The translations under genes and the position numbers were made by a program. DNA of 10,191 nucleotides from Anaerolineae bacterium (GTDB lineage: Bacteria > Chloroflexota > Anaerolineae > B4-G1), in the NCBI GenBank assembly GCA_030612185.1, contig JAUWOI010000111.1, forward strand, positions 1 to 10,191, read 5' to 3'. The notes below the pieces were generated by a model. It saw only the letters and a program-made list of their open reading frames with translations. It was not told the origin of the DNA and did not search any database. Of the stretch, positions 1-10,191 are shown in pieces. Each line of letters begins with the position of its first letter. The stretch's first letter is position 1.

Positions 1-256
1 AGCGGTGCCAGAGGCGAGCCATCCACTCGTCGCTTATCGGAATCGTGCGGAACTTGACGGTTGACGCCTGACGGTAGACGCTTGACGTTTGACGTTTGAC
101 GCTTGACGCCTGACGCCTGGTTCCTCCGGTGGCAGCGAAGAGAACATACTGGTGCGGGTTCTCCAATGCCAGGAGCGCTGCCACCAGTTCGCGTGTGTAG
201 CGGCCGATGCCAGCACGCTGGCGGACCGCGGCGGTGTAGTCAATGCCGATGATCAT
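1..256 (-). CDS. GT4-type glycosyltransferase, N-terminal fragment (runs off left edge)
   Basis: Reading the minus strand from ATG at 256 gives a protein beginning MIIGIDYTAAVRQRAGIGRY, followed by TRELVAALLAL and later FRTIPISDEWMARLWHR. This is the usual start of GT4/GT-B glycosyltransferases that add sugars to envelope polysaccharides; the GIGRY segment lines the nucleotide-sugar cleft. About 85 codons are present and the catalytic C-terminal half lies outside the window. Between the first beta-strand unit (about residue 45) and the ISDEW segment, the reading frame passes through nine tandem heptamers (54-116), encoding a low-complexity RQASxVK-like stretch of 21 residues. There is no strong Shine-Dalgarno. 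The gene follows gtrA after a 187-bp gap filled by a repeat element, so it may be the last visible gene of the operon starting at 3941. Family assignment is good; donor and acceptor sugars cannot be told. Confidence 0.72.
   Translation of the reverse strand, partial: MIIGIDYTAAVRQRAGIGRYTRELVAALLALENPHQYVLFAATGGTRRQASSVKRQTSSVYRQASTVKFRTIPISDEWMARLWHR
54..116. repeat. Tandem heptamer array (TTGACGC-like, 9 units) inside the GT4 gene
   Basis: Nine consecutive 7-bp units with plus-strand consensus YTGACGY (mostly TTGACGC) run without interruption. The total of 63 bp equals 21 codons, so the glycosyltransferase frame is kept, but adding or removing a single unit would shift it. Confidence 0.93.
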
Positions 257-282
257 TAGAACTCGGATTTCAAGACAAATGA

Positions 283-423
283 TGTCATTGCGAGCGTAGC
301 GAAGCACCGCCACGCCTGCCACGAGAGTACTCTCGCAGTGGAGCCCCGCCACGAGTACTCGCGGTGGCAATCTCCCGCCAGCAAGTTGGAGATTGCTTCG
401 TCACTTCGTTCCTCGCAATGACA
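283..423. repeat. Palindromic dispersed element, copy 1 (TGTCATTGCGAG ends)
   Basis: The element begins TGTCATTGCGAGCG and ends in the inverted form CCTCGCAATGACA. Internal palindromes include CGAGAGTACTCTCG and a nested CCGCCACGAGTACTCGCGGTGG. Translated, the end gives the CHCEERSDEAIS string well known as a spurious protein motif made by this class of bacterial repeat. It fills most of the gap between gtrA (ends 443) and the GT4 gene (starts 256). A second copy with the same ends lies at 7604-7911. The rest of 257-442 shows no gene. Confidence 0.85.
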
Positions 424-442
424 GGGTGAGTATTCAAGAAGT

Positions 443-928
443 TCAACTGACATGGCGGAAGGTCCATAGCCGGTTGATAAAAAAGTTCCAGAACAGTACC
501 ACGCCGGTGGCGATCACTTTCGCGCCGTTGTAAGCCAGGTCGAAGTGGGCCATCCCGGTCGCGAGAGCCAGCGCGCCGACGGGACCAGCCAGCAGGCCCG
601 CCTGACACAAGAGCCAGCGGTCAGAACTATAGAAGACCGCCGTGTTGATGGCCAGTCCGGCCACGTTGACGACTGAGAACTGCACGAACTGTTTACGCAA
701 CGGCTCCCCCCACGTTTCCGGGTAGACCCACAGCCGGTTCCAGATAAAGTTGCTGATGACCGCAGCGGTGAAGGAGCAGGTATTGGCAAGCAACTTGGGG
801 AAGCCGGCCAGTTGCACCAGCAGGTTGAGCAGGCCAAAGTCAATCACAGCGCCCAACGTGCCGACGGCGGCGAACTTGAGAAACCGGACGATCTCTTTCT
901 GATTGATGCGAGTAAGTCTAGCGATCAT
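443..928 (-). CDS. GtrA-family membrane protein
   Basis: A 161-residue protein, the usual GtrA length, with four predicted membrane segments (about residues 18-37, 42-64, 82-100 and 134-153). The N-terminal FLKFAAVGTLGAVIDFGLLN and the C-terminal NFFINRLWTFR are the two family signatures. GtrA proteins are thought to flip polyprenyl-phosphate-linked sugars, or otherwise help move them across the cytoplasmic membrane for envelope glycosylation. The ATG (926-928) overlaps the stop of the upstream ligase gene as ATGA, so translation is probably coupled. AAGGAGG (931-937) lies only two bases from the ATG, an unusually tight spacing. Position in a sugar-nucleotide, ligase and glycosyltransferase operon agrees with the role. 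The precise substrate is unknown. Confidence 0.9.
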   Translation of the reverse strand: MIARLTRINQKEIVRFLKFAAVGTLGAVIDFGLLNLLVQLAGFPKLLANTCSFTAAVISNFIWNRLWVYPETWGEPLRKQFVQFSVVNVAGLAINTAVFYSSDRWLLCQAGLLAGPVGALALATGMAHFDLAYNGAKVIATGVVLFWNFFINRLWTFRHVS

Positions 929-2538
929 ATCCTCCTTTGCTGTCCTGCCACCCGTGTTCTCCGGACAACGAAGGCCAGGAGACCCAGCAGGACGCCGATG
1001 TACAAGTGGACGTTGTTGACGTAGAGGTTGTCAAGGAAATGGTGCACGCTGAGGTGGGTCCATGTGCCGAGGAGCCCGATGGCGATCCCACGCCAGAGGC
1101 CCTCAGCGCGGCGCGTGGCCTGCCAGGTCTGCCAGAAGACCGCGCCCCAAAGGAGCATGTAGGCGACCAGGCCGGTGAGACCGGTCTCGGCGGCGACGTT
1201 CAGGTAGTAGTTGTGGGCGTGCCCCAGCGCGATGGACCAGTTGATGAGCGCGAACTCGTGGTAGGCCGGTTCGTAGCAGCCAAAGCCGACGCCGGTCCAC
1301 AGGTTGTAGCGTATCATCTCCAGCGCCGCCTGCCAGTGGGCCAGCCGCTCGATGACGGCGAAGTTGGCATTGTTGATGCCCACCCCGCGCACGTCCTCAA
1401 ACCGCACGTCCTGGGCAAAATCGGTCAGGCGGGCCACGACAGGGGCAGGCAGCAGGCCGGCCGCGTACAGGCCCAAACCCCCGACGAGAAGCACGGCGAC
1501 CAGCAGCACTCCCCAGCGCGCCCTACGCGGCAGCGCGACCGCCATCACCAATGCCGCCGCCCCGAAGCCCAACCAGGCCCCCCGGCTCCAGGACATCGCC
1601 AGGGCGGTGAGCATTATGAGGGCAGCACTTGCAATGAGCAGGCCGGTAGATTGGTAGATTGGTAGATTGGTAGATTGGTGAGTTGGGCGACGTTTTCCCA
1701 ATTTACCGGTGTACCAATTTCCCAATTTACCAGTATACCAATTTCCCAATTTACCAGTGTACCAATTTCCCAATATACCGATAGCCAGCGACAAAGTTAT
1801 CCCGATGTACCCCGCATACGGGTTCGGCTGCTCAAAGGTGCCGTAGGCGCGGTAGAAGCGTTCACCGAGGACGAGGATGGCGAAGTGCTCCGGCCCCTCA
1901 CCGCGCAGCCCGAATTGCCAGATGCCGATGCCCGCCTGGAAGAGCCCGGCCACGAGCAAGACGGACAGCAGCCAGGGCAACCGCTGGGACGTGAGATGGT
2001 CGCTGACGAATAGAAAAATGAGCAAGATTTGCACCCACTTGATGAACTCCGGCACGCCATAGACAGGCAGTTCGACCGCGTCCCACAGAGACAGCAGCGC
2101 CGCGCCAAGGAAGACGAGCAGCGGCAACAGTAGGGGCAATCCCTTGTGGTTGCCCCTGTGATTGCCCTCGTGCTCGCCCTCGTGACTACCCTCGTGCTCG
2201 CCCAGCGGGTGGGGGAAACGCAAATCCCGGCGGGCCAACCCCCGCGCCAGCCAGACGGCCAGCGTCAGTACGACAAAGACCTGGGCGATCTGGGCCGGTA
2301 CCTGCGGAACCTCGGCACGCAGGTAGGCCCACAGGGGGCCAAGGAAGAGCGCGGCGGCCAGCCCGGCCAGCGGCTCGATCAGCGTGGCCACGCCGCCGAC
2401 AGCCAGCACGACAAAGAGCAGTCCGCCCAAGGGCGTGAGCCGGATAAGCAGCAGTCCAGCAGCGAGGGCCAGCGCCAGCGCCAGGAGTGTGATCAGCGGG
2501 CCGTTCCAGGCCCACGCACGGTTCAGTACTCTATCCAT
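925..2538 (-). CDS. O-antigen ligase/Wzy polymerase-like membrane protein
   Basis: A 537-residue polytopic membrane protein. It shows the Wzy_C/O-antigen ligase pattern: a membrane segment with the SWSRGAWLG motif (about 316-324), then a large loop with IRYNLWTGVGFGCYEPAYHE (about 409-428) and GHAHNYYLNVAAETGLTGL (about 439-457), followed by two or three helices. Such enzymes polymerise or transfer lipid-linked glycans on the outer face of the membrane; ligase and polymerase cannot be separated by sequence alone. Two odd insertions are present. One is a histidine-rich tetrapeptide repeat at residues 113-133. The other, about residues 253-298, is made by octamer arrays and gives GNWYTGKL repeats. 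The start overlaps the Nudix gene by 16 bp and the end overlaps gtrA, so it sits tightly inside the operon. The Shine-Dalgarno (GGTGGA directly before ATG) is weak. Confidence 0.88.
   Translation of the reverse strand: MDRVLNRAWAWNGPLITLLALALALAAGLLLIRLTPLGGLLFVVLAVGGVATLIEPLAGLAAALFLGPLWAYLRAEVPQVPAQIAQVFVVLTLAVWLARGLARRDLRFPHPLGEHEGSHEGEHEGNHRGNHKGLPLLLPLLVFLGAALLSLWDAVELPVYGVPEFIKWVQILLIFLFVSDHLTSQRLPWLLSVLLVAGLFQAGIGIWQFGLRGEGPEHFAILVLGERFYRAYGTFEQPNPYAGYIGITLSLAIGILGNWYTGKLGNWYTGKLGNWYTGKLGKRRPTHQSTNLPIYQSTGLLIASAALIMLTALAMSWSRGAWLGFGAAALVMAVALPRRARWGVLLVAVLLVGGLGLYAAGLLPAPVVARLTDFAQDVRFEDVRGVGINNANFAVIERLAHWQAALEMIRYNLWTGVGFGCYEPAYHEFALINWSIALGHAHNYYLNVAAETGLTGLVAYMLLWGAVFWQTWQATRRAEGLWRGIAIGLLGTWTHLSVHHFLDNLYVNNVHLYIGVLLGLLAFVVRRTRVAGQQRRI
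1645..1684. repeat. Octamer array GGTAGATT (5 units) inside ligase gene 1
   Basis: Four exact GGTAGATT units (1645-1676) and one variant, GGTGAGTT (1677-1684), follow one another without gaps. On the coding strand they encode the HQSTNLPIYQST stretch of the O-antigen-ligase-like protein. Confidence 0.93.
1695..1782. repeat. Octamer array TTACCAAT-like (11 units), inverted relative to the neighbouring array
   Basis: Eleven consecutive 8-bp units of the types TTCCCAAT, TTACCAGT and RTACCAAT, ordered in a 24-bp higher repeat. On the coding strand they give three copies of GNWYTGKL. The core TACCAAT is the reverse complement of ATTGGTA in the 1645-1684 array, so the two arrays face each other across a 10-bp spacer and could fold back on one another. 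Confidence 0.92.
2140..2202 (-). repeat. 12-bp coding repeat giving a histidine-rich loop
   Basis: Five degenerate 12-bp units encode EHEG, SHEG, EHEG, NHRG and NHKG (residues 114-133 of the ligase-like protein). The unit is a multiple of three, so copy-number change would keep the frame. The stretch lies in a loop between predicted membrane helices. Confidence 0.85.
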
Positions 2539-2990
2539 TCCACCAGATTCAGATCAACGTCGCAGACGAACTTGGCCTGGAAGCAGCCCTCGGTCATCGC
2601 CAGGACCCTGAGGGCGAAGATCGCGTCGGCCTGAGGGATGGGAAGATCGGTGAAATACTCTTCCAGGGGAACCCAGGCCAAATTCCCCTCTCGCTCGTCG
2701 GCCTCCAACGTCCCTTGGAAGCATGTGGTCACAAAAACAAAGAGATACCACGACCACTCCTGAAGCGGGGAGACCAGGGTGCAAATGCCGCGCAGGTAGA
2801 GGTCTCCCACCTCCAGGCCAGTCTCCTCCGCCATCTCACGCCGAGCCGTCTCATGGGGAGACTCACCTGATTCTATCTTGCCTCCTGGTGCGATCCACAG
2901 TCCCAGGTTGGGCTCCTTGTTACGATGCATCAGCAACACCTTACCCTCGCGGCGGGCATAGACCACTACAGTTGAGACCTCATGCCCCAT
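2523..2990 (-). CDS. Nudix hydrolase (MutT-like)
   Basis: A 155-residue single-domain Nudix protein. The full Nudix box GX5EX7REUXEEXGU is visible from G37 to L59 (E43, R51, E52, E55, E56, G58), the site that binds the metals cleaving a nucleoside diphosphate linkage. The beginning, VSTVVVYARREGKVLLMHRN, resembles 8-oxo-dGTP diphosphatase/MutT branches. The start ATG lies directly after the stop of the upstream decarboxylase (TAA ATG) and the end overlaps the next gene by 16 bp, so it is co-expressed with polysaccharide genes. Substrate is not determined by the box: a damaged nucleotide, a nucleotide sugar or another nucleoside diphosphate are all possible. The C-terminal 40 residues are not recognisable as a separate domain. 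Confidence 0.9.
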   Translation of the reverse strand: MGHEVSTVVVYARREGKVLLMHRNKEPNLGLWIAPGGKIESGESPHETARREMAEETGLEVGDLYLRGICTLVSPLQEWSWYLFVFVTTCFQGTLEADEREGNLAWVPLEEYFTDLPIPQADAIFALRVLAMTEGCFQAKFVCDVDLNLVEWIEY

Positions 2991-3941
2991 TTATACTAGC
3001 CCTAGCTTCTTTCGGAAGTACGCCACCGTCTGCCGCAGCCCTTCCTCCAGCCCCACCTGCGGCTCCCACTCCAGCACACGCCGCGCCTTGCCGATGTCGG
3101 GGCAGCGCACCTTGGGGTCGTCGGCGGTGCGCGCGTCGGTGGGCTCGATGAAGGTGAGAGGTGAACTACTACCGGTCAACTCCAGCACCTTGTGGGCGAA
3201 CTCCAGGATAGTCATCTCGTCTGGGTTACCCAGGTTAACCGGCATAGTCTCGTCAGAGTGAAACAAGCGCACCATCCCTTCGACCAGATCGGACACGTAG
3301 CAGAAGGAGCGAGTGCGGGAGCCGTCGTCGTAGATGGTGAGGGGTTCGCCGCGTAGCGCCTGGCAGACGAAGTTGGGCACTACGCGGCCATCGTCCAGGC
3401 GCATCCTCGACCCGTAGGTATTGAAGATACGAGCGATGCGTGTATCCACGCCGTGGTAACGATGGTAGGCCATCGTGAGCGCCTCAGCGAAACGTTTGCT
3501 CTCGTCATAGACGCCGCGCGGGCCGACGGGGTTGACGTTGCCCCAATAGTCCTCGTGCTGGGGATGCGTCAGTGGATCGCCGTAGACCTCGGAGGTGGAG
3601 GCCAGCAGGAAACGGGCTCCCTTCTCCAGCGCCAGGCCCAGTGTCTTGTGCGTGCCCAGCGCACCCACCTTGAGCGTCTGGATGGGCAGGTTGAGGTAGT
3701 CCACCGGACTGGGCAGGCTGGCCAGGTGGAGCACCGCGTCAAGGTGACCTTCGACGAAGATGTAGTCGGTCACGTCGTGCTTGATGAAATGGAAGTGATC
3801 GTGGCCGGCCAGACGTGCGATGTTATCCACGTTACCGGTGCTCAGATTGTCTATCGCGATGACCTCGTGACCGTCGGCCAGTAACCGGTCGCAGAGGTGG
3901 GAGCCGATGAAGCCGGCCCCGCCGGTGATGAGAATGCGCAT
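2991..3941 (-). CDS. UDP-glucuronate decarboxylase (UDP-xylose synthase), SDR family
   Basis: A 316-residue extended short-chain dehydrogenase/reductase. It has the NAD-binding GGAGFIG at 7-13, STSEVYG at 115-121 with the UXS-type glutamate E118, the catalytic Y145xxxK149, and [14 protein letters not shown] at 209-222. The run [21 protein letters not shown] and [20 protein letters not shown] are characteristic of UDP-glucuronate decarboxylases, which convert UDP-glucuronate to UDP-xylose in the cytosol for envelope glycans. The start at 3941 is preferred over the longer frame (to 4025) because AAGGAG (3948-3953) sits six bases upstream and the Rossmann fold starts at once; the longer form would also read through the promoter. 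It is the first gene of the minus-strand polysaccharide operon. Other UDP-sugar epimerases/dehydratases are less likely. Confidence 0.92.
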
Positions 3942-3996
3942 TACCCACTCCTTATGTATGAGGTTGTTTGTGTCCCTTACGGCACCACTCGACCAG

Positions 3997-4025
3997 ATTA
4001 TATCATACCTCAAGGCGATTCCCAA
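3997..4025 (-). promoter_or_regulatory. Sigma70-type promoter for the polysaccharide operon
   Basis: On the minus strand TTGGGA (4025-4020) is followed after 17 bases by a perfect TATAAT (4002-3997). The TGA just before the -10 makes it an extended -10. The predicted start lies about 50 bases before the decarboxylase ATG at 3941. Seen by eye only. Confidence 0.72.
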
Positions 4026-4039
4026 ATCGGCAGTCGTTT

Positions 4040-4137
4040 AGACCTCCGAGGTTTAGGCAATGCAGTTGGCCTGGAAATCAATCTGGGTGCTGCTAACAAC
4101 TTCCTGGAGAGCACCAATTCGTAAACCTCGGAGGTCT
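4040..4137. repeat. Inverted pair of AGACCTCCGAGGTTTA palindromic repeats
   Basis: The 16-mer AGACCTCCGAGGTTTA at 4040-4055 returns as its exact reverse complement at 4122-4137. Each arm is itself nearly palindromic (ACCTCSGAGGT). Related copies lie at 5388-5402, 7723-7738 and 7805-7819, so this is a dispersed family. Here the pair sits between two divergent promoters, so it is unlikely to be a terminator for either gene. Confidence 0.88.
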
Positions 4138-4151
4138 TGCCCCAACTGTAT

Positions 4152-4179
4152 TTGACACCAGGCACAATCTGGTTATACT
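4152..4179 (+). promoter_or_regulatory. Near-consensus sigma70 promoter directed at tatA
   Basis: TTGACA (4152-4157), a 16-bp spacer and TATACT (4174-4179) form a near-perfect housekeeping promoter. The next gene on this strand, tatA, begins 213 bases downstream, with a MITE-like element between. Without that element the leader would be only about 30 bases. Confidence 0.78.
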
Positions 4180-4185
4180 ATCTAT

Positions 4186-4357
4186 GACTCCACTGAAAAA
4201 AGGGCTAATCTTAACGCAGAGACGCAAAGGCGCAGAGATTCTTGAATGACGCTTCAATATTTTTGAGAATCAAGGCCTTTGACGGAACAAATCTTCTTCT
4301 ACTTTTCAATTCTCTTTGCGCCTCTGCGTTGAAGATTTTGGTTTTTTCAGTAGAGTC
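4186..4357. mobile_element. MITE-like element (172 bp) with long terminal inverted repeats and ATCTAT duplication
   Basis: The left end GACTCCACTGAAAAAA is matched, inverted, by TTTTTTCAGTAGAGTC at the right end. Imperfect similarity continues inward for about 45 bp, through AACGCAGAGRCGCAAAG. The hexamer ATCTAT flanks both ends directly (4180-4185 and 4358-4363), as expected of a target-site duplication. The interior has no open frame of note, so any transposase would have to act from elsewhere. Inside the left arm three RCGCARAG octamers stand in tandem (4214-4237). Another reading is a non-mobile folded repeat; the hexamer alone could be chance. Confidence 0.75.
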
Positions 4358-4366
4358 ATCTATACT
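4338..4366 (+). promoter_or_regulatory. Possible second tatA promoter formed at the element's right junction
   Basis: TTGGTT (4338-4343), contributed by the right inverted repeat, is followed after 17 bp by TATACT (4361-4366), contributed by the flank and the duplicated hexamer. The start would be about 20 bases before tatA ATG. The -35 is weak, so this is tentative. Confidence 0.45.
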
Positions 4367-4392
4367 CAAGAAAAGAGAGAAGGAGAAGCGAG

Positions 4393-4581
4393 ATGCCGAG
4401 TTTTGGTGTGTGGGAGTGGGGGATCATCCTGGTCATCGTGCTAGTGATCTTCGGCGCGAGCCGGCTGACAGACATAGGTAAGGGCCTGGGCGGGGCCATC
4501 AGTGAGTTCAAGAAAGCCGTGCAGGAGGAGCAAGAGGAGCAAGACGAATCCGCCAGCGAAGCGGGAGAAGAAGGCGCGTAG
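4393..4581 (+). CDS. tatA: Twin-arginine translocase subunit TatA/TatE
   Basis: A 62-residue protein with the TatA layout. A short N-terminal membrane helix (about 7-21, EWGIILVIVLVIFG) is followed by the FG hinge, an amphipathic helix (RLTDIGKGLGGAISEFKKAV, about 24-43) and an acidic tail rich in glutamate. TatA subunits gather around TatC to form the passage for folded proteins across the cytoplasmic membrane. The glutamate at residue 8 is where many TatA proteins have another polar residue and TatB proteins have Glu. No separate TatB is seen, so a minimal TatA-TatC system is likely. AAGGAG (4380-4385) lies seven bases before the ATG. tatC follows 44 bases downstream, so the two are probably one transcript. 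Confidence 0.93.
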   Translation: MPSFGVWEWGIILVIVLVIFGASRLTDIGKGLGGAISEFKKAVQEEQEEQDESASEAGEEGA

Positions 4582-4587
4582 GCGGGC

Positions 4588-4629
4588 ATGGATGTCCTGA
4601 AGAACTCCACCAGGTCGCCAAGCCGATGA
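4588..4629 (+). CDS. Possible 13-codon leader peptide overlapping tatC start
   Basis: A short frame MDVLKNSTRSPSR ends in TGA (4627-4629), overlapping the tatC ATG (4626-4628) as ATGA. The tatC start has no convincing Shine-Dalgarno of its own (only AGG, 11 bases away), so coupling through this frame is conceivable. Its own ribosome site is also weak. This is an idea from geometry alone. Confidence 0.2.
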   Translation: MDVLKNSTRSPSR

Positions 4630-5375
4630 CAGCAGAGGTTTCCCCGGAACACCAGAAACTGCTGTCTATTCTCGGGCACTTGGCGGAGGTGCGCGAGCGG
4701 TTGGTGAAATCAGTCGTTGCGCTGCTCGTCTGCAGTGCCATCTGCTTCTTCGTCTCCAAGCCCATCCTGCTTTTCCTGCTGGCCCCGATGGGCGATTATC
4801 CGGTCATCGCGCCACGTCCGACGACCACCGTCAGTATCTTCATGAGGATATCGCTGGTGTCGGGTGCGATTCTGGCGACGCCGATCATCGTCTACCAATT
4901 GTTGTGCTTCGTCACACCAGGGCTCATGCCGAAGGAGCGTCGATCGCTCTACTGGATCATCCCCGGCGTGACGATCTCTTTCGTGGGGGGCGCGGCCTTC
5001 GCCTACTTCGTGATGGTGCCGGCGGCGATCCCCTTTCTGCTGGGGTTCCTCTCCGACGTGATCCAGCCAACCTGGATGGTTGACGAGTACATCCCCTTTA
5101 TCACCTCGTTGATCTTCTGGGTGGGTGTCAGTTTCGAGACGCCGCTGATCCTCTACTTCCTGGCCTGGTTGGGACTGGTTGATGCTAAGATGCTACTCAA
5201 GGGCTGGAGGTTCGCCATCGTGGGCATCGCCGTCCTGGCTGCGGCCATCACACCCACGCCTGACCCCTTCAACATGATGTTGGTGATGCTGCCGTTGCTG
5301 TTGTTGTACCTCCTGGGGGTGTTCCTGGCCTGGGTGGCGGGGCGACAGAGACGCAAGAGGGATAATGCCGGCTGA
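4626..5375 (+). CDS. tatC: Twin-arginine translocase subunit TatC
   Basis: A 249-residue, six-helix membrane protein of normal TatC length. Key parts are visible: HLAEVRERLVKSV (18-30), the cytoplasmic N-terminal signature used in signal-peptide recognition; FVTPGLMPKERR (95-106) in the first cytoplasmic loop; VSFETP (168-173) with the conserved glutamate E171; and ITPTPDPFNMMLVMLPLLLLY (208-228) with D213 near the fifth helix. TatC binds the twin-arginine signal and recruits TatA. The ATG at 4626 fits family length. The gene overlaps the next one by 11 bases, making a tatA-tatC-EEP transcript likely. Nothing looks damaged. Confidence 0.95.
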   Translation: MTAEVSPEHQKLLSILGHLAEVRERLVKSVVALLVCSAICFFVSKPILLFLLAPMGDYPVIAPRPTTTVSIFMRISLVSGAILATPIIVYQLLCFVTPGLMPKERRSLYWIIPGVTISFVGGAAFAYFVMVPAAIPFLLGFLSDVIQPTWMVDEYIPFITSLIFWVGVSFETPLILYFLAWLGLVDAKMLLKGWRFAIVGIAVLAAAITPTPDPFNMMLVMLPLLLLYLLGVFLAWVAGRQRRKRDNAG

Positions 5376-6435
5376 GTCTAGACCTCGAGACCTCCGAGGT
5401 CTGGGTTACACTCCACCCCCGCCGGGCTTCCTCAAGCGGCTTGCTATTGCTGGCGTCAACCTGCTGACGCCACTCCATGCCGGTCTGATTTTCATCTACT
5501 TTGCCTTGCGCTGGTTGGGTGGGGGTGACCTGTGGTTCGTTGATGCCCTCGGTTACGTCTTGCCCTGGCTATTTGTCCCACTGGTCGTGTTGCTGCCAGC
5601 GTGCTGGCTCCGCCGCTCCCGCCTCCTGCTGATTCTCGTCGCCGTGCCCACCGCTCTCTTTCTGCTCACCTACGGCCATCTCTATCTCCCCCGCTGGCCG
5701 GTCCGCGCCGCTGGCCCGACGTTCACTGTGATGACCTACAACGTTCTTTACGTGAATCCGCACGCCGATCAGGTCGCGGCTGTTATCGAAGCACACGACC
5801 CGGACTTCTTCGGCCTGCGCGAGTTGGAACCGCCTATGGCCCAGGCGATCGCAAGCCGGTTCGCCGACCGTTACCCCTACTACAAGTTGGAACCCGACTG
5901 CGGCTTTTTCAGCCGCTACCCGATCCTGCAATACGAGGCTTTCCGGCTCGGTCAGGGTGAGGGGAGTTGGGCGCAGCAGTGTGTCTTGGATATAAACGGC
6001 TACCAGGTGAACGTCCTCAGTGTCCATCCGCGCTCGCCGCCGCTGCTGGGTTTCCATCCCTTCGGCTTACCGCTGGGCGTCCCCACGGGGTTTGCCAATC
6101 AGGGGCGCGACGCCGACGTGCACGACCTGTTATCGCGCCTGGAGCAGATGGACAGCCCGCTGGTCGTCATCGGCGACTTCAACCTGACCGACCAGCAGAG
6201 CCTGTACGCGCTGCTGACCCACCACCTGCACGATACGCATCGCGAGTGTGGATGGGGGACGGGCTTCACGTTCACTCGCTTCCCGCGGCTCGGCCTCCCG
6301 ACGTGGCGCATTGACTACGTGTTTCACTCGCCAGACATAGTGGCGCTCTCCACGGCGGTGGGAGACTATGGCGGGTCCGATCACCGGCCGGTGATCGCCA
6401 GGCTGGCCTTTGGTGCGCCAGAAAGCATACGTTGA
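5365..6435 (+). CDS. Membrane-anchored endonuclease/exonuclease/phosphatase-family protein (VanJ-like)
   Basis: A 356-residue protein. Three N-terminal membrane helices (about 36-51, 60-81 and 87-103) precede an EEP-fold catalytic domain (about 119-347). Active-site landmarks are present: TYN126, E153 in GLRELE, H221, GDFN at 270-273, D317 in IDYVF, and SDH at 338-340. The three-helix plus EEP layout matches VanJ-type proteins, where an extracytoplasmic domain hydrolyses undecaprenyl pyrophosphate or related lipid pyrophosphates. That role here is an inference; a phosphodiesterase or lipid phosphatase of another kind is possible. AAGAGG (5355-5360) precedes the ATG, which lies inside tatC. 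Residues about 5-17 (SRPRDLRGLGYT) are encoded by a copy of the dispersed AGACCTCCGAGG palindrome, so the extreme N-terminus seems to be repeat-derived. Confidence 0.85.
   Translation: MPAESRPRDLRGLGYTPPPPGFLKRLAIAGVNLLTPLHAGLIFIYFALRWLGGGDLWFVDALGYVLPWLFVPLVVLLPACWLRRSRLLLILVAVPTALFLLTYGHLYLPRWPVRAAGPTFTVMTYNVLYVNPHADQVAAVIEAHDPDFFGLRELEPPMAQAIASRFADRYPYYKLEPDCGFFSRYPILQYEAFRLGQGEGSWAQQCVLDINGYQVNVLSVHPRSPPLLGFHPFGLPLGVPTGFANQGRDADVHDLLSRLEQMDSPLVVIGDFNLTDQQSLYALLTHHLHDTHRECGWGTGFTFTRFPRLGLPTWRIDYVFHSPDIVALSTAVGDYGGSDHRPVIARLAFGAPESIR
5380..5402. repeat. AGACCTCCGAGGTCT palindrome within the EEP gene
   Basis: AGACCTCG followed by AGACCTCCGAGGTCT (5388-5402) is the same palindromic family found at 4040, 4122, 7723 and 7805. 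It lies in coding sequence just after the tatC stop and supplies codons of the next gene. Confidence 0.85.
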
Positions 6436-6463
6436 GCGAGATCGAAGGGGTGACCGGACGGCT

Positions 6464-6688
6464 TTACCTGCCCTCTAACGGGAAGGTGCTAGCGGCGATC
6501 ATAACGTCTAGCAGATCAACTACCGCCCACGCTACTGTCTTGGGCGAAGGTGCGTCAGGTTGATCAAAACCCCAGGACGCAATGGCGTCGTCTGTCATAC
6601 CGTAGTCATGATACTCGCTCCGGTAATGACCGCTAGGTAACAGGTCATCCGCATTGCTAAGCTGAAGCGAATCCAGAAACGTGCTCAT
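6464..6688 (-). CDS. Small hypothetical protein (74 aa)
   Basis: Not recognised. The predicted protein starts MSTFLDSLQLSNADDLLPSG and is acidic, with a hydrophobic C-terminal stretch (KTVAWAVVDLLDVMIAAS, about 50-67) that could be a weak membrane or amphipathic helix. A strong Shine-Dalgarno, GGTGGAGG (6696-6703), stands seven bases before the ATG, the main reason to believe the gene is real. It converges with the EEP gene, whose stop is 28 bases away. Three 12-bp repeats each holding TTGACA lie upstream (6791-6826). The DDLLPSGHYRSEYHDYG part has no metal- or nucleic-acid-binding motif I can name. It could be a lineage-specific gene or an accessory regulator. Confidence 0.6.
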   Translation of the reverse strand: MSTFLDSLQLSNADDLLPSGHYRSEYHDYGMTDDAIASWGFDQPDAPSPKTVAWAVVDLLDVMIAASTFPLEGR

Positions 6689-6770
6689 AATTCTGCCTCC
6701 ACCTATGATATCCTTACCTCTGAATCCTTTTCCCTGTCGCAGAGAACTGCTTCAGGTGGTGACAACTTTC

Positions 6771-6798
6771 AGCCTAGTATACTACACGAGCGTGTCAA
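6771..6798 (-). promoter_or_regulatory. Possible promoter for the small hypothetical gene
   Basis: On the minus strand TTGACA (6798-6793), a 16-bp spacer and TAGGCT (6776-6771) point at the gene starting at 6688. The palindrome TAGTATACTA (6775-6784) overlaps the spacer and -10 and could be an operator. The -10 is a poor match, so this is tentative. Confidence 0.4.
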
Positions 6799-6826
6799 GA
6801 TGCGTGTCAAAATGCGTGTCAAGATG
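6791..6826. repeat. Three direct 12-bp repeats CGTGTCAAGATG
   Basis: Units at 6791-6802, 6803-6814 and 6815-6826 are identical apart from one base in the middle unit. On the minus strand each holds TTGACA. They fill the short gap directly after the macro-domain gene stop and upstream of the small hypothetical gene, an arrangement like an operator or iterated -35 element. Confidence 0.9.
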
Positions 6827-6829
6827 GGC

Positions 6830-7372
6830 CTATTCGGCCTGGGCCATCAGTTCTCTGGTGAAAACTTCGAACGCGGGCTGACCGTAAAGGCAGAATACAA
6901 CCCGCTCTAGACCTGTCTCTCCCTGCAAGTACTCAATGGCCGCCCGCAGCATCACCCCGGCAGCCTCCTCTATCGGGTAGCCGAAGATGCCGGTGCTGAT
7001 GGCCGGCAGCGCGATGGAGCGCAAATCATGCTCATCCGCCATCCGCAGTGCGGCGCGCACCGCTGAGGCCAGCAGTTCCGCTAAACGCGGTCTGCCGTCG
7101 TAAATCGGTCCCACGGCGTGTATCACGTACCGCGCCTTCAGGTTGCCGCCGGAGGTGATGGCCGCCGAGCCGGTAGCCACCGGGCCGTGCTGGCGCACCC
7201 ACTCATCGCTCTCCCGCTGGATGGCCGGGCCGCCCTTGCGGGAGATGACCCCCGCCACCCCGCCGCCATGGACCAACCGCTCGTTGGCGGCGTTGACGAT
7301 AGCGGCGCTGTCCATCTCCGTGATGTCGCCTTGCACCAATTCCAGGACGGCACGGTTGATCTGGATGCGCAT
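6830..7372 (-). CDS. Macro-domain ADP-ribose-binding protein
   Basis: A 180-residue protein that is essentially one macro domain. It has GDIT with D16 (adenine contact), IVNAANERL (25-33), the GGGVAG loop (36-41), and the phosphate-binding loop ISTGIFGYP (125-133). Such proteins bind ADP-ribose and many hydrolyse O-acetyl-ADP-ribose or remove mono-ADP-ribose from proteins. Those activities are known for the family and not shown for this member. The ATG at 7372 is chosen because AAGGGGG (7377-7383) precedes it and the fold begins within a few residues. A frame extension to 7423 would run into repeat DNA. It stands alone between repeat-rich gaps, with no partner ADP-ribosyltransferase in the window. 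Confidence 0.92.
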   Translation of the reverse strand: MRIQINRAVLELVQGDITEMDSAAIVNAANERLVHGGGVAGVISRKGGPAIQRESDEWVRQHGPVATGSAAITSGGNLKARYVIHAVGPIYDGRPRLAELLASAVRAALRMADEHDLRSIALPAISTGIFGYPIEEAAGVMLRAAIEYLQGETGLERVVFCLYGQPAFEVFTRELMAQAE

Positions 7373-7413
7373 ATTGCCCCCTTGTGATACATAGGACGTG
7401 AAACGTGATAGGT

Positions 7414-7500
7414 CTTGGATCACGAAACACGCGAAAGGGCGCGAAAAGCGCGAAAGGCATTCGTGGCTTTCATGTTGCTTCGTGACTTTCGTGGTCCAAG
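7414..7500. repeat. Inverted-repeat element with CACGAAA/GCGAAA motifs
   Basis: CTTGGATCACGAAA (7414-7427) matches, inverted, TTTCGTGGTCCAAG (7487-7500) at 13 of 14 positions. The interior repeats GCGAAA several times. It lies just upstream of the macro-domain gene. No gene is seen in 7373-7956 as a whole; this stretch is repeat DNA. Confidence 0.8.
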
Positions 7501-7559
7501 CGGCCCCTGCCCCAGTGCTTTGTCAAGACTGTTATGCTGGCCGTCATTCTGAGCTATGC

Positions 7560-7577
7560 GTGGCGCGAATACGCCAC
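7560..7577. repeat. Small hairpin GTGGCG/CGCCAC
   Basis: A perfect 6-bp stem with a six-base loop in the gene-free region. There is no following T-run on either strand, so it is not a clear intrinsic terminator. Confidence 0.5.
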
Positions 7578-7603
7578 TCATTGTGCAAGAAACAGAGTCA
7601 ACC

Positions 7604-7911
7604 TGTCATTGCGAGGAGCCGAAGCCGCGAGCGAAGCGTGGCGGCCAGCGACGAAGCAATCCCCGAAGCAATCCCCAATAGCCCAGGTGGAGATTGGGCG
7701 TATCTACCACTTGGGGAGCAGCAGACCTCGGAGGTTTACACTGTGTTTTGCTTAACCAGATGCGCTGGTTGGAGTGTTTTTTGAGCCTGAAGATGGTCTT
7801 ACAGAAACCTCCGAGGTCTTTACTTGTGATACTCCCCCAGGTTTTGTATGCACCCGTGGAGATTGCCACCGCGAGTACTCGTGGCGGTGCTTCGCTGCGC
7901 TCGCAATGACA
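7604..7911. repeat. Composite palindromic element, copy 2 (TGTCATTGCGAG ends)
   Basis: TGTCATTGCGAGGAGC at the left and GCGCTCGCAATGACA at the right mark the ends, as in the copy at 283-423. The right part again contains CCGCGAGTACTCGTGGCGG. Nested inside is an inverted pair of the other family: AGACCTCGGAGGTTTA at 7723-7738 and AAACCTCCGAGGTCT at 7805-7819. The structure looks like one repeat family inserted within, or flanked by, another. Confidence 0.82.
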
Positions 7912-7956
7912 GATATTCCCCCATCATAGCCCCGCAACTTGGGGGCATTGCTGGTC

Positions 7957-8005
7957 GCTGTCTGCTAACGGCTGACTGCTAACGGCTGACTGCTAACGGC
8001 TAAAC
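7957..8005. repeat. Heptamer array GCTAACG/GCTGACT (7 units) over the DUF4230 stop codon
   Basis: Seven 7-bp units alternate between GCTAACG and GCTGACT-like forms, giving a 14-bp higher repeat. The stop codon of the DUF4230 gene (7993-7995) and its last few codons lie inside the array. Confidence 0.92.
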
Positions 8006-8646
8006 ATGACCTCGCGGAAGCCCAGCGACAGGATGAGGTGCCGCACGTAGGTCTCGGCGCTTCGCTGGGCCATCTCCAGGATGCCATCCTCCAGCGCCGC
8101 GTTCAGTATTTCCTCCTCGGCCACTTGCCTTGCCTCCGTCTCCAACGCCGGATTCGGCCCGATCAGCCCCGTGTCCCGGTCGAAGACGTAGGACTTCTGG
8201 TTGTTCAGCGTGACGACGAGAACCTCAGCCGGGGGCATCGTGACGACCACCGTCCCCGCCTCGGCAACGATGATGTCATCCTCCTCCATCTTGCTCAGGT
8301 CCACGCCGGCGATGACCTGGCCGTGGGCGACCAGAATCAATCGGTCGCCGAAGAGAAAGGCGAAGTGTCCCTGCCCCGATTCGGCGGTGATGATCTTCTC
8401 GACGGTGTAGGAGGCCGTCTCCAGCCGGCTGAGGCTGCGCACCTGGCGGATGATCGTCACCGGGTCAGCGATGATGGTGGGCGTGGGGTTAGTGATCTCC
8501 TTCCACTGCTCCTCCAGCGCCCGCTCAGCCTCCTCCAGCGGTTGTGTCAGTCGCTGGATCGAACGGACCAGCATCACACCGCCGGCGACCAGGGCGATCA
8601 AGATCAGCACCAGAATCACTGTGTTGAGGTTAGGTTTTGAATTCAT
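7993..8646 (-). CDS. DUF4230 domain-containing membrane-anchored protein
   Basis: A 217-residue protein with one N-terminal membrane helix (about 9-27) and a short coiled-coil-like region (QRLTQPLEEAERALEEQWKEI, about 31-51). It continues into a DUF4230 domain, recognised from IIRQVRSLSRLETASYTVEKII (about 65-86), GDRLILVAHGQVIAGVDLSKM and VVVTMPPAEVLVVTL. The domain is common but its biochemical role is not established. The mostly beta C-terminal domain is probably outside the membrane. GGAG (8654-8657) lies seven bases before the ATG. The gene begins 42 bases after the second O-antigen-ligase-like gene and is probably in its transcript. The last residues and stop lie in a heptamer array, so array changes could alter the C-terminus. 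Confidence 0.85.
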   Translation of the reverse strand: MNSKPNLNTVILVLILIALVAGGVMLVRSIQRLTQPLEEAERALEEQWKEITNPTPTIIADPVTIIRQVRSLSRLETASYTVEKIITAESGQGHFAFLFGDRLILVAHGQVIAGVDLSKMEEDDIIVAEAGTVVVTMPPAEVLVVTLNNQKSYVFDRDTGLIGPNPALETEARQVAEEEILNAALEDGILEMAQRSAETYVRHLILSLGFREVMFSR

Positions 8647-8688
8647 TCCCTATCTCCAATCGCTTGCTAGAATGCGTTCCCTCCAAGA

Positions 8689-10191
8689 TCATTCTCCTGC
8701 TGTTATCGCTCCCGACGTAGTACTGTCGTTTGCTGCCAGCCACTCCATGACACCCAATGTTAGGAAGAAAGCGAACGCCAAATCAATAAGAAAGTAGGAC
8801 GCATCCACCAGGCCGTGGGCCAAGAAGTAAGCCATTGAGCCCATCAGGCCCAGCGCCAGAGCGCGACGGTCAGCGTCAGTCAAGCGGCGCAGCGGCAGGG
8901 CCAGCCGCCAGAAGGCCACCTGAAGCCAGGTCCCAGCCGCCAGGCCCGCGAGACCCATCCGCGTCGCATAGTCGAGCAGGATGTTGTGTGCCTGGGAGAT
9001 GTCCGGCTCCTGCCAGGCGGCGGGCAGGATGTAACGCCCCCGGTAGTGGTACAGGAAGTTATCGGGACCGACGCCGAGCCACAGATGTTCGCGGAACATC
9101 GTCCATGACGCACGCCAGAGTTGCAGGCGGAAAAAGGTGGTGCCACTTTGCGTGTTCAGAAGGGAGGCAAAGCGCGGGGTGCGCAGGAGCGGGACAGCGG
9201 CTACGGCAGCTGCGGCCACCGCCCCCAGCGAAGCCCAGAGCCACCGCCCGCCCGCCAGCACGCCCAACGCCAGCAGCGAGAGGGGGACACCCAGGACAAG
9301 CGCGCCTTTGGAGAAACTGAGCAGCACCGCCAGCCCCAGCGGGACGACGGCCAGGCCATAAGCGACGCGGCGGCCACGCGAACCGCCGAACAGGGTGACA
9401 GCCACCAGTACCGGCAGTACCCGTCCCAGGTAGAGGCCGACGCTGTTGGGCGAGCCGTAGACGGAGCGCAGGCGGCGGAAGCCCTCCTCGGCGGTGATGA
9501 TATTCACGCCGAGGCCGTACTGCACCAGGCCGATGAGCGCCACAGCGACAGCCCCCAGCACGAAGAAATCCACCACGCGCCATAAAGCCTTGCCGTCGAG
9601 CCGGCTTGTGCGCAGCATCAGGTAAAAGAGCGCCGGCTCCAGGACAACGAGACGCAACTCACGCAGTGCGACGTGGCGGTATTCGGCGACGAAGAAAGAA
9701 GCAACGCTCACCAGCACAAAGAACAGGGCAGCGAGGTCGAGGTTGGAGAATGGTTGGGTGGGTGGGTGGTTAGTTGGTTGGTTAGTTGGTTGGTTGGTTG
9801 GTTGGTTGGTTAGTTGGGTGGTCAGTTGGCGGAGGCCCCACGACAGCAGGCACAGCAGCGTTGTTATCTCCACCATCGAGAACGCTTTGCCGAACAGAGG
9901 GCGGGGGTACAGGTAGAAGGGGGCCGTCGCTGCGACGAGCGCCAGGCCCAGGTCGAGTCGCAGAACAACAAGCGCGGCCAGCGCCAGACCACTGACGAGC
10001 GTGAGCGCAGTAGCCACCAGGCCACTGACCAGCGTGGGTGGGAGCCAGGACGAGAAATAGAATACGCCGGCGGTGAGAAGAATGGAGAATGGAGAGCAGA
10101 GAGTGGAGAGTGGAGAATAGAGAGCAGAGAATAGAGAATGGAGAGTAGAGAATAGAGAATGGAGAACAGAGACTGCACAACACCTTTTGCC
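8689..10191 (-). CDS. O-antigen ligase/Wzy polymerase-like membrane protein 2 (N-terminus beyond right edge)
   Basis: A second polytopic membrane protein of the Wzy_C type. It shows LSFSKGALVLGVPLSLL, then a large loop with FREHLWLGVGPDNFLYHYRGRY and SQAHNILLDYATRMGLAGL, with C-terminal helices after it. The GTG at 10017 is a possible start, but the frame stays open from there to 10191 and encodes a believable first membrane segment (LLTAGVFYFSSWLPP then TLVSGLVATALTLV). Starting at the GTG would cut that helix, so I annotate the gene as partial. Two tandem arrays lie in frame. A heptamer array (10078-10175) gives LHSLFST-like repeats, and a GTTG array (9751-9829) gives PTNQ repeats between early helices. 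It probably acts on lipid-linked glycans outside the membrane; polymerase or ligase cannot be decided. Confidence 0.85.
   Translation of the reverse strand, partial: GKRCCAVSVLHSLFSTLHSLFSALYSPLSTLCSPFSILLTAGVFYFSSWLPPTLVSGLVATALTLVSGLALAALVVLRLDLGLALVAATAPFYLYPRPLFGKAFSMVEITTLLCLLSWGLRQLTTQLTNQPTNQPTNQPTNHPPTQPFSNLDLAALFFVLVSVASFFVAEYRHVALRELRLVVLEPALFYLMLRTSRLDGKALWRVVDFFVLGAVAVALIGLVQYGLGVNIITAEEGFRRLRSVYGSPNSVGLYLGRVLPVLVAVTLFGGSRGRRVAYGLAVVPLGLAVLLSFSKGALVLGVPLSLLALGVLAGGRWLWASLGAVAAAAVAAVPLLRTPRFASLLNTQSGTTFFRLQLWRASWTMFREHLWLGVGPDNFLYHYRGRYILPAAWQEPDISQAHNILLDYATRMGLAGLAAGTWLQVAFWRLALPLRRLTDADRRALALGLMGSMAYFLAHGLVDASYFLIDLAFAFFLTLGVMEWLAANDSTTSGAITAGE
9751..9829. repeat. Tetranucleotide array (GTTG)n inside ligase gene 2
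   Basis: The stretch is composed of GGTT-type tetramers with a few GGTG and AGTT variants. The longest exact run is 27 bp (9785-9811, 6.75 units). On the coding strand it reads CCAA repeats and encodes PTNQPTNQ-like sequence. The unit is not a multiple of three. Confidence 0.93.
10078..10175. repeat. Heptamer array GAGAATG-like (14 units) at the window's right end
   Basis: Fourteen successive units fit GAGARYR closely (GAGAATG, GAGAATA, GAGAGTG, GAGAGCA, GAGAACA), the first being AAGAATG. On the minus strand, in the ligase-like frame, three units make a seven-residue repeat such as LHSLFST, and no stop occurs. Confidence 0.93.

Follow-up and report, generated by a model that had tools for sequence, protein, structure and literature searches.

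Non-triplet tandem arrays in variable loops of O-antigen-ligase-like genes of an Anaerolineae bacterium and its relatives: opposed pairing and probable loop diversification in three-unit steps

Introduction

What is the effect, if any, of short tandem arrays whose units are not multiples of three nucleotides when they lie in frame inside polysaccharide genes? This question is raised by a 10,191-nucleotide contig of an Anaerolineae bacterium (JAUWOI010000111.1, assembly GCA_030612185.1), referred to here, at its full length, as the window. Five such arrays, with units of 4, 7, or 8 bp, lie in three of its genes: one for a glycosyltransferase, which we take to belong to family GT4, and two for O-antigen-ligase-like (Wzy_C) proteins, called ligase 1 and ligase 2 below. 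An earlier note on this DNA had proposed that the arrays are contingency loci, in which gain or loss of one unit would switch a surface-glycan gene. The best reading of the comparison with relatives is a different one: the arrays resemble the short tandemly repeated repetitive (STRR) sequences of cyanobacteria, are often self-complementary, and are dispersed in spacers and tolerant loops. Where they stand in frame in variable loops, they likely diversify these loops by three-unit steps, and switching between on and off would be a rare by-product at most.

Results

Non-triplet arrays in three glycan genes

Tandem arrays were called with Tandem Repeats Finder (TRF), and significance was judged against 200 dinucleotide shuffles of the window. 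The three array-bearing genes and their arrays are as follows.

2..256, minus strand: GT4-type glycosyltransferase, N-terminal fragment, cut at the window edge (matches in relatives)
925..2538, minus strand: ligase 1, O-antigen-ligase-like (Wzy_C) membrane protein, 537 aa (Pfam PF04932)
8689..10191, minus strand: ligase 2, O-antigen-ligase-like (Wzy_C) gene, 5' end outside the window (Pfam, longer homologs)
53..116, minus strand: 7-bp array in the GT4 gene (TRF: 9.1 copies, 80% matches)
1645..1679, minus strand: second arm in ligase 1, 8-bp array (TRF: 4.4 copies, 100% matches)
1694..1779, minus strand: first arm in ligase 1, 8-bp array (TRF: 10.8 copies, 71% matches; as 24 bp, 3.6 copies, 93%)
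9751..9822, minus strand: 4-bp array in loop B of ligase 2 (TRF: 18 copies, 85% matches)
10079..10172, minus strand: 7-bp array, CTATTCT-type, in loop A of ligase 2 (TRF: 13.4 copies, 79% matches)

The five arrays have TRF scores of 70-95, and the shuffled windows (n = 200) contained no non-triplet array with a period of 4-12 at score 50 (maximum 42). Four of the five are degenerate (71-85% matches); the sole pure tract is the 4.4-unit array at 1645-1679. Both large genes score well above the Pfam cut-off for Wzy_C of 31.7 bits (82.3 and 62.6 bits). Wzy_C covers both ligases and polymerases, and the ligase name is putative for both genes. The GT4 fragment has no Pfam match, but in all 10 relatives searched it corresponds to a longer gene. 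With ligase 1 as the query, a search of plasmids gave no match.

The earlier note was thus right to place non-triplet arrays in these three genes. One correction concerns which glycan genes carry them: the epimerase and GtrA genes also belong to this group and have no array, so the array carriers are the large glycan genes. Its prediction that a one-unit change would shift the frame is borne out in silico. Simulated changes of -2, -1, +1, and +2 units introduce an early stop at all four ligase arrays, whereas +3 units preserve the ligase frame. At the GT4 array, -1 and +2 units lead to a stop inside the window, and other changes give no stop in the available stretch. The frameshift potential of the ligase arrays is thus genuine.

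Reading frames in relatives

The relatives kept for ligase 1, 80 of the 121 found, are by title nearly all Chloroflexota metagenome-assembled genomes (MAGs), for example from Anaerolineae and Thermoflexia. Among 94 distinct ligase-1 rows, none is a split gene: both blocks lie in one open frame in 91, and the other three hold the C block only (two of them, L278 and L099, carry a flag for closeness to a contig edge; L100 does not). Before duplicate removal, 120 of 124 rows were intact. For ligase 2, all three blocks are present in 39 of 50 distinct open reading frames (ORFs), and of the 11 that miss one or more blocks, some lie at contig edges or are distant homologs, one is a ligase-1 gene, and one is the window's own ORF. 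An explicit search among the 61 ligase-2 ORFs with any block found no case of blocks split between neighboring ORFs. As the loci were found by translated matches to either part, broken genes could have turned up.

A wider screen covered 239 arrays, 104 of which have homology on both sides. Of these, 100 keep the frame, three are mixed, and one is shifted; many of the 104 are ligase loops already counted, and some spanning matches rest on one or a few proteins and may cross the repeats by chance. The mixed sites, which were retained in the count, are L085, with one shifted match of 162, and two arrays of L049 that lie in the spacer between GtrA and GT4 and not in a gene body.

Array-built loops and their length steps

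In ligase 1, the second arm reads (ACCAATCT)4.4 on the coding strand, encodes residues about 287-299, and has no stops in any of the three frames. The first arm, which encodes residues about 254-282 and is a near reverse complement of the second, consists of the 8-bp units GGTAAATT, GGGAAATT, and GGTAYACT arranged in a 24-bp superunit; its self-identity is 0.94 at a lag of 24 compared with 0.72 at a lag of 8. Together, the arms encode residues about 254-299. The frame in use is open in the first arm, and three stops interrupt one of the other two; the superunit reads TAC or TAT at codons that a pure GGTAAATT array would make TAA. Because of these replacements and the stops in the other frame, the sequence of the first arm points to long translation in one frame.

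To place the arms in the protein, ligase 1 was modeled with AlphaFold2. The best of five models has a mean predicted local distance difference test (pLDDT) score of 78.9 and a predicted template modeling (pTM) score of 0.81, and the five range from 52.5 to 78.9 in mean pLDDT. In this model, the first arm forms the end of a helix (240-280), the second arm forms the start of another (294-316), and a low-confidence turn at 281-293 separates them. The closest solved fold is that of WaaL (PDB ID: 7tpg; E 1.7e-6, template modeling scores of 0.51/0.65), consistent with a predicted WaaL-like fold; a sequence-profile search of the PDB with ligase 1 gave no match at E 0.001. Compared with WaaL, ligase 1 is longer and has the array-built loop. 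This loop is probably cytoplasmic, judging by a count of helices back from the long 361-443 stretch, which is taken as periplasmic.

Among ligase-1 homologs, the array stretch between the FEQPNPYAG and SWSRG motifs varies in length and aligns poorly, and relatives show different arrays at gap-rich alignment positions of both ligases. At a score of at least 40, non-triplet arrays are present in 19 of 91 distinct DNA-checked ligase-1 loops (0.2 expected from shuffles) and, in either loop, in eight of 39 DNA-checked ligase-2 genes (0.5 expected). At score 30, the counts are 31 of 91 (3.2 expected) and 13 of 39 (4.6 expected); these include chance arrays, which is why the argument relies on score 40.

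Both ligase-2 arrays likewise fall in length-variable loops, A and B. Since close homologs are mostly 650-760 aa long, ligase 2 runs on upstream of the window, and the array at 10079-10172 is therefore mid-gene. The loop-B array at 9751-9822 is AACC-type and has a peptide period of TNQP (4 aa, or 12 bp). A first arm of loop A may lie beyond the window, because two close homologs, P0121 and P0124, have charged repeat-like residues just upstream of the loop-A array position. In the 5' part of the GT4 gene, alignment with relatives indicates that the array at 53-116 fills a variable stretch flanked by the conserved blocks LFAATGG and IPISDEWLARLWHR.

Loop lengths in ligase 1 were measured in the 113 of 120 proteins with both anchors (the seven without were dropped), and the two main 8-bp loop types were chosen by peptide patterns. 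In the 23 loops of the GGTAAATT/CCAATCTA type, lengths cluster at 62, 70, 78, and 86 residues, and 13 of the 23 fall in one class modulo 8, a result reached in 0 of 5000 jittered null sets. For the GAGACAAG/CTTGTCTC type, 11 of 22 loops fall in one class (jittered null 1/5000), and the same signal is weak in the remaining ligase-1 loops (17/68; jittered null 157/5000). A step of eight residues corresponds to 24 bp, or three units. The window itself differs by one such step from a close homolog, P0003 (86% identical), with loop segments of 61 and 53 residues, respectively. As the protein set holds only in-frame sequences, the steps show whole-unit change and not the absence of OFF alleles; their use as evidence against OFF alleles was rejected on this ground, and it is the count at the DNA level that bears on such alleles.

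Opposed pairing of arrays

The arrangement noticed in ligase 1, in which one array faces its own reverse complement, is a trend across relatives. In 18 ligase-1 loops with at least two non-triplet arrays, opposed similarity within a loop is 19.2, a value that none of 20,000 permutations reached (p 5e-5), compared with 9.0 across loci; for direct similarity, p is 0.18. Thirteen of the 18 pairs are opposed, three are direct, and two are tied. The opposed units themselves differ by locus: GGTAAATT/ACCAATCT in the window, AAGGGGAC/GTCTCCCT in L014, TCGTAAAT/ACGAATCT in L035, and GAGTTAG/CTCCTCA in L214. Neighboring arrays within one ORF (n = 23) give 18 opposed, four direct, and one tied pair, and those not within one ORF (n = 19) give 13, four, and two. 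ORF and edge classes, here and in the partner, lag, and dispersal counts below, rest on a simple custom ORF caller.

When unique 7- and 8-bp arrays are considered, 37 of 122 have an opposed partner within 150 bp, compared with 3.3 expected from the flanks of other arrays, whereas five have a partner in the same orientation (3.5 expected). This set of 122 excludes arrays with less than 100 bp of flank, and hence the window's GT4 and 10079-10172 arrays. Opposed partners are found for 20 of 62 arrays in ORFs and 17 of 60 outside, for 27 of 101 distinct sites, and, without ligase ORFs, for 20 of 82 arrays (16 of 72 sites). The left arms are mostly purine-rich (24 above one half, 10 below, and three equal, with both arms of some pairs counted). 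At the RNA level, the fold of 1635-1790 has a z of -3.99 (156 nt), and that of the window's 204-nt ligase-1 loop has a z of -2.05 (60 shuffles). A z of -2 or below is reached by nine of 18 two-array loops and six of 65 loops in the comparison set. A literature search restricted to open-access papers found no description of opposed arrays or of ligase arrays in Chloroflexota.

Individual opposed pairs were also observed elsewhere. GGAGATT-type and AATCTCC-type arrays oppose each other in L049 (10171-10232) and L031 (10223-10289); in L049, the pair fills the spacer from the GtrA stop to the GT4 start codon and is a possible leader hairpin. In L162 (3489-3619, genome G007), an opposed 8-bp pair lies in frame in an ORF of 1565 aa for a flavin adenine dinucleotide (FAD)/iron-sulfur (Fe-S) oxidoreductase.

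Dispersal among genes and spacers

Sampling of contigs from five relatives (1,090,942 bp, with a coding share of 82-90%) gave 55 non-triplet arrays, 19 lying within an ORF, 13 at the edge of one, and 23 clear of any ORF. Numbers vary between samples, from none in G009 to 4 in G003, 11 in G008, 18 in G007 (a sample that omits two targeted contigs, L179 and L198), and 22 in G015. The unit type AATCTACC occurs at six arrays, in the window, in G007/L008, and in G015.

Fourteen ORFs in these contigs bear arrays. Three are of glycosyltransferase type (PMT, PMT with DUF2298, and GT2), five have no Pfam match, and the other six hosts are SelB, the FAD/Fe-S oxidoreductase with its opposed pair, S1, MiaA, a CtpB-like protein, and a P-type ATPase. 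The arrays in the S1, MiaA, and CtpB-like ORFs, at 0.10, 0.01, and 0.00 of the ORF, may be leaders. Against the three of 14 glycan hosts, GT2 occurs in at least three of 110 random genes, a background that lists the 25 commonest families and therefore undercounts other glycosyltransferases; a mild glycan bias of the arrays is possible. In SelB (L160 10796-10828, G007), the array is a pure 7-bp tract of 4.7 units, in frame between two domains.

Other features of the window

The remaining Pfam families in the window are GtrA, NUDIX, epimerase/dehydratase, TatC, Exo_endo_phos, Macro, and DUF4230. Further genes and arrays are listed here.

443..928, minus strand: GtrA family gene, without an array (Pfam PF04138)
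2141..2203, minus strand: triplet-compatible 12/24-bp array (HEGSHEGEHEGNHRGNHKG), elsewhere in ligase 1 (TRF)
7957..8001: 14-bp-period array, spanning spacer sequence and the final 9 bases of the DUF4230 ORF (TRF)
7993..8646: DUF4230 gene, with the macro-domain gene on one side and ligase 2 on the other

By eye, the 14-bp-period array consists of two variant heptamers, GCTGACT and GCTAACG. The spacer upstream of the tatC region contains inverted repeats at 4040-4137 and 4213-4330, one a GACCTCCGAGGTTT pair that is 76% complementary and one a AACGCAGAGACGCAAAG pair that is 94% complementary. Inspection by eye places the GACCTCCGAGGTTT motif again near 5385-5400, 7723-7738, and 7805-7820, and dispersed TCATTGCGAG...GAAGCAATC-like repeats in the spacers at about 280-420, 7600-7680, and 7855-7915.

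Discussion

We propose that STRR-like arrays in frame in variable loops probably diversify these loops by whole steps of three units. In such a process, slippage would change the unit number, purifying selection would remove out-of-frame alleles and hold coding copies in frame, and template switching between hairpin arms could make and maintain the pairing; the last step would explain pairing that persists while the units turn over. By analogy with NeuO (see below), loop length could tune enzyme activity, with a putative effect on the enzyme or its glycan.

A number of observations weigh against this proposal. Most ligase-1 homolog loops (72/91) fall below score 40 and are array-free by that measure, and 85 of 122 arrays have no opposed partner at the threshold used. 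In three of the 18 ligase-1 pairs, the direct orientation gives the higher similarity, and two pairs tie. Two-array loops fold only modestly better than the comparison set (median z -1.69 vs -0.43; p 0.012), and no instance of template switching was observed in these sequences. Three-unit superperiodicity is not a general feature, and the expectation that coding arrays would show it more often than the rest was rejected: a lag of three units ranks first for 14 of 47 ORF arrays and for 12 of 38 others. In addition, MAG consensus sequences mask minority OFF alleles. Finally, a GT4 gene of the window's family in L035 shifts frame exactly at (GATTTGC)3 (10675-10701). All 57 of its 57 homolog match pairs are shifted, and it is the only one of the 104 screened arrays with all matches shifted. 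Arrays can therefore break a glycan gene, and, as this gene is out of frame at its array, frame loss has been tolerated at least once (one case, in a MAG consensus).

The strongest rival on function is that the arrays are neutral passengers: slippage-prone arrays would appear at any place, persist without a function where they fall in spacers or unconstrained loops, and be paired as a by-product of template switching at hairpins. We regard this as an evenly balanced proposition. It has every structural point in common with loop diversification, and the two differ only on whether the loop changes matter. That 36 of 55 arrays lie outside ORFs or at their edges, that arrays occupy variable loops with units that change between lineages, and that reverse-complement copies can, according to published work, arise by template switching (PMC8794818) are all as expected of passengers. 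In contrast, array-built loops recur in homologs of both ligases, perhaps beyond what chance passengers would give.

A bolder form of the diversification proposal treats an array and its own reverse complement as a self-templating element. The hairpin that they form would let template switching rewrite one arm from the other, such that the palindrome persists, the units turn over, and new membrane-enzyme loops are built repeatedly. On this tentative and rather doubtful account, the charged loop would come from the purine-rich arm, and the pyrimidine-rich arm would encode the lead-in to the membrane helix that follows.

Selection for RNA or DNA hairpins, which would modulate, for example, translation or transcription and act as leaders when in spacers, is an unlikely explanation of the opposed pairs. 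Opposed pairing inside and outside genes with changing units, the window RNA fold (z -3.99), and the L049 GGAGATT/AATCTCC pair just before a GT4 start codon are consistent with selected hairpins, but just half of the two-array loops (9/18) reach a z of -2 or below, and most arrays have no partner.

Similarly improbable is the reading advanced in the earlier note, that slipped-strand gain and loss of units toggles both ligase genes and the glycosyltransferase gene, so that the surface glycan varies. Non-triplet units with in-silico truncation, the pure 4.4-unit octamer tract in ligase 1, length variation among relatives, and the natural frameshift at the 7-bp array of the L035 GT4 gene lend it weak support; set against these are the degenerate, mid-gene state of the arrays and their presence in SelB, an oxidoreductase, and spacers. 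The frame-shifted relatives to which that note had looked for support amount to this one GT4 gene, with none found in ligase 1 (94 rows) or ligase 2 (61 ORFs), where no split gene was seen. Nor are arrays restricted to glycan genes: in the sampled contigs they also occur in spacers and in the SelB, Fe-S/FAD oxidoreductase, and P-type ATPase genes. Contingency may nevertheless apply to individual genes, above all GT4. An assembly or gene-call artefact is very improbable: short-read assemblies are poor at repeats, and ligase 1 of the closest relative (L008) ends at a contig end near its arrays, but 19 of 91 and eight of 39 DNA-checked homologs (score 40) likewise have loops with in-frame arrays, and such loops also appear in protein sets from several sources.

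Several known systems resemble parts of this picture. Cyanobacterial STRRs are short tandem arrays dispersed over several loci, and Vioque reportedly described STRR sequences in 1997 in the gene for RNase P RNA in heterocyst-forming cyanobacteria. The arrays studied here likewise share a common short unit at several loci and occur outside genes. In contrast to STRRs, commonly understood as cyanobacterial heptamers, they belong to Chloroflexota MAGs, include 8-bp and 4-bp as well as 7-bp units, lie in protein-coding loops, and show measured reverse-complement pairing.

NeuO of E. coli K1, like the proteins here, is a polysaccharide-modifying enzyme whose gene has a heptanucleotide array (poly-psi); three units encode one peptide heptad, a full-length product is made only at multiples of three units, and array length is reported to tune activity (PMC3046976). 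The NeuO array has one stated unit, starts two nucleotides past the start codon, and is reported to switch. The window arrays, unlike that of NeuO, are mostly degenerate and mid-gene in variable loops, with one opposed pair: the ligase-1 arms are at residues 254-299 and, by homology, the ligase-2 arrays are mid-gene rather than at a 5' end. Dispersed 7-bp arrays are also described in Xanthomonas and Nostoc, where heptamer repeats are over-represented between genes, under-represented on coding strands, and variable in length (PMC4692102), and in Beggiatoaceae, where all but 25 sets of TAACTGA repeats are fully intergenic, with one inverted case (PMC4679880). Compared with both, mid-gene in-frame arrays and opposed pairs are common here. 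Reverse-complement copies that form stems are known from template-switch hairpins, with stem maintenance (PMC8794818), and from coding palindromes of nematomorph mitochondria, in which both arms encode protein (PMC6649704). The abstracts of these two papers do not mention arms made up of tandem arrays, the arrangement found here.

Caution is warranted in reading non-triplet arrays as a sign of phase variation: their presence in surface-glycan genes, taken alone, does not count as evidence for it. Simple repeats are reported to be suppressed mid-gene in prokaryotes (Lin and Kussell, cited in PMC4692102). Here, several relatives have non-triplet arrays mid-gene and in frame, and 37 of 122 of the 7- and 8-bp arrays have a reverse-complement partner; these genomes thus provide a natural setting in which to test how hairpin templating together with slippage could create new protein sequence.

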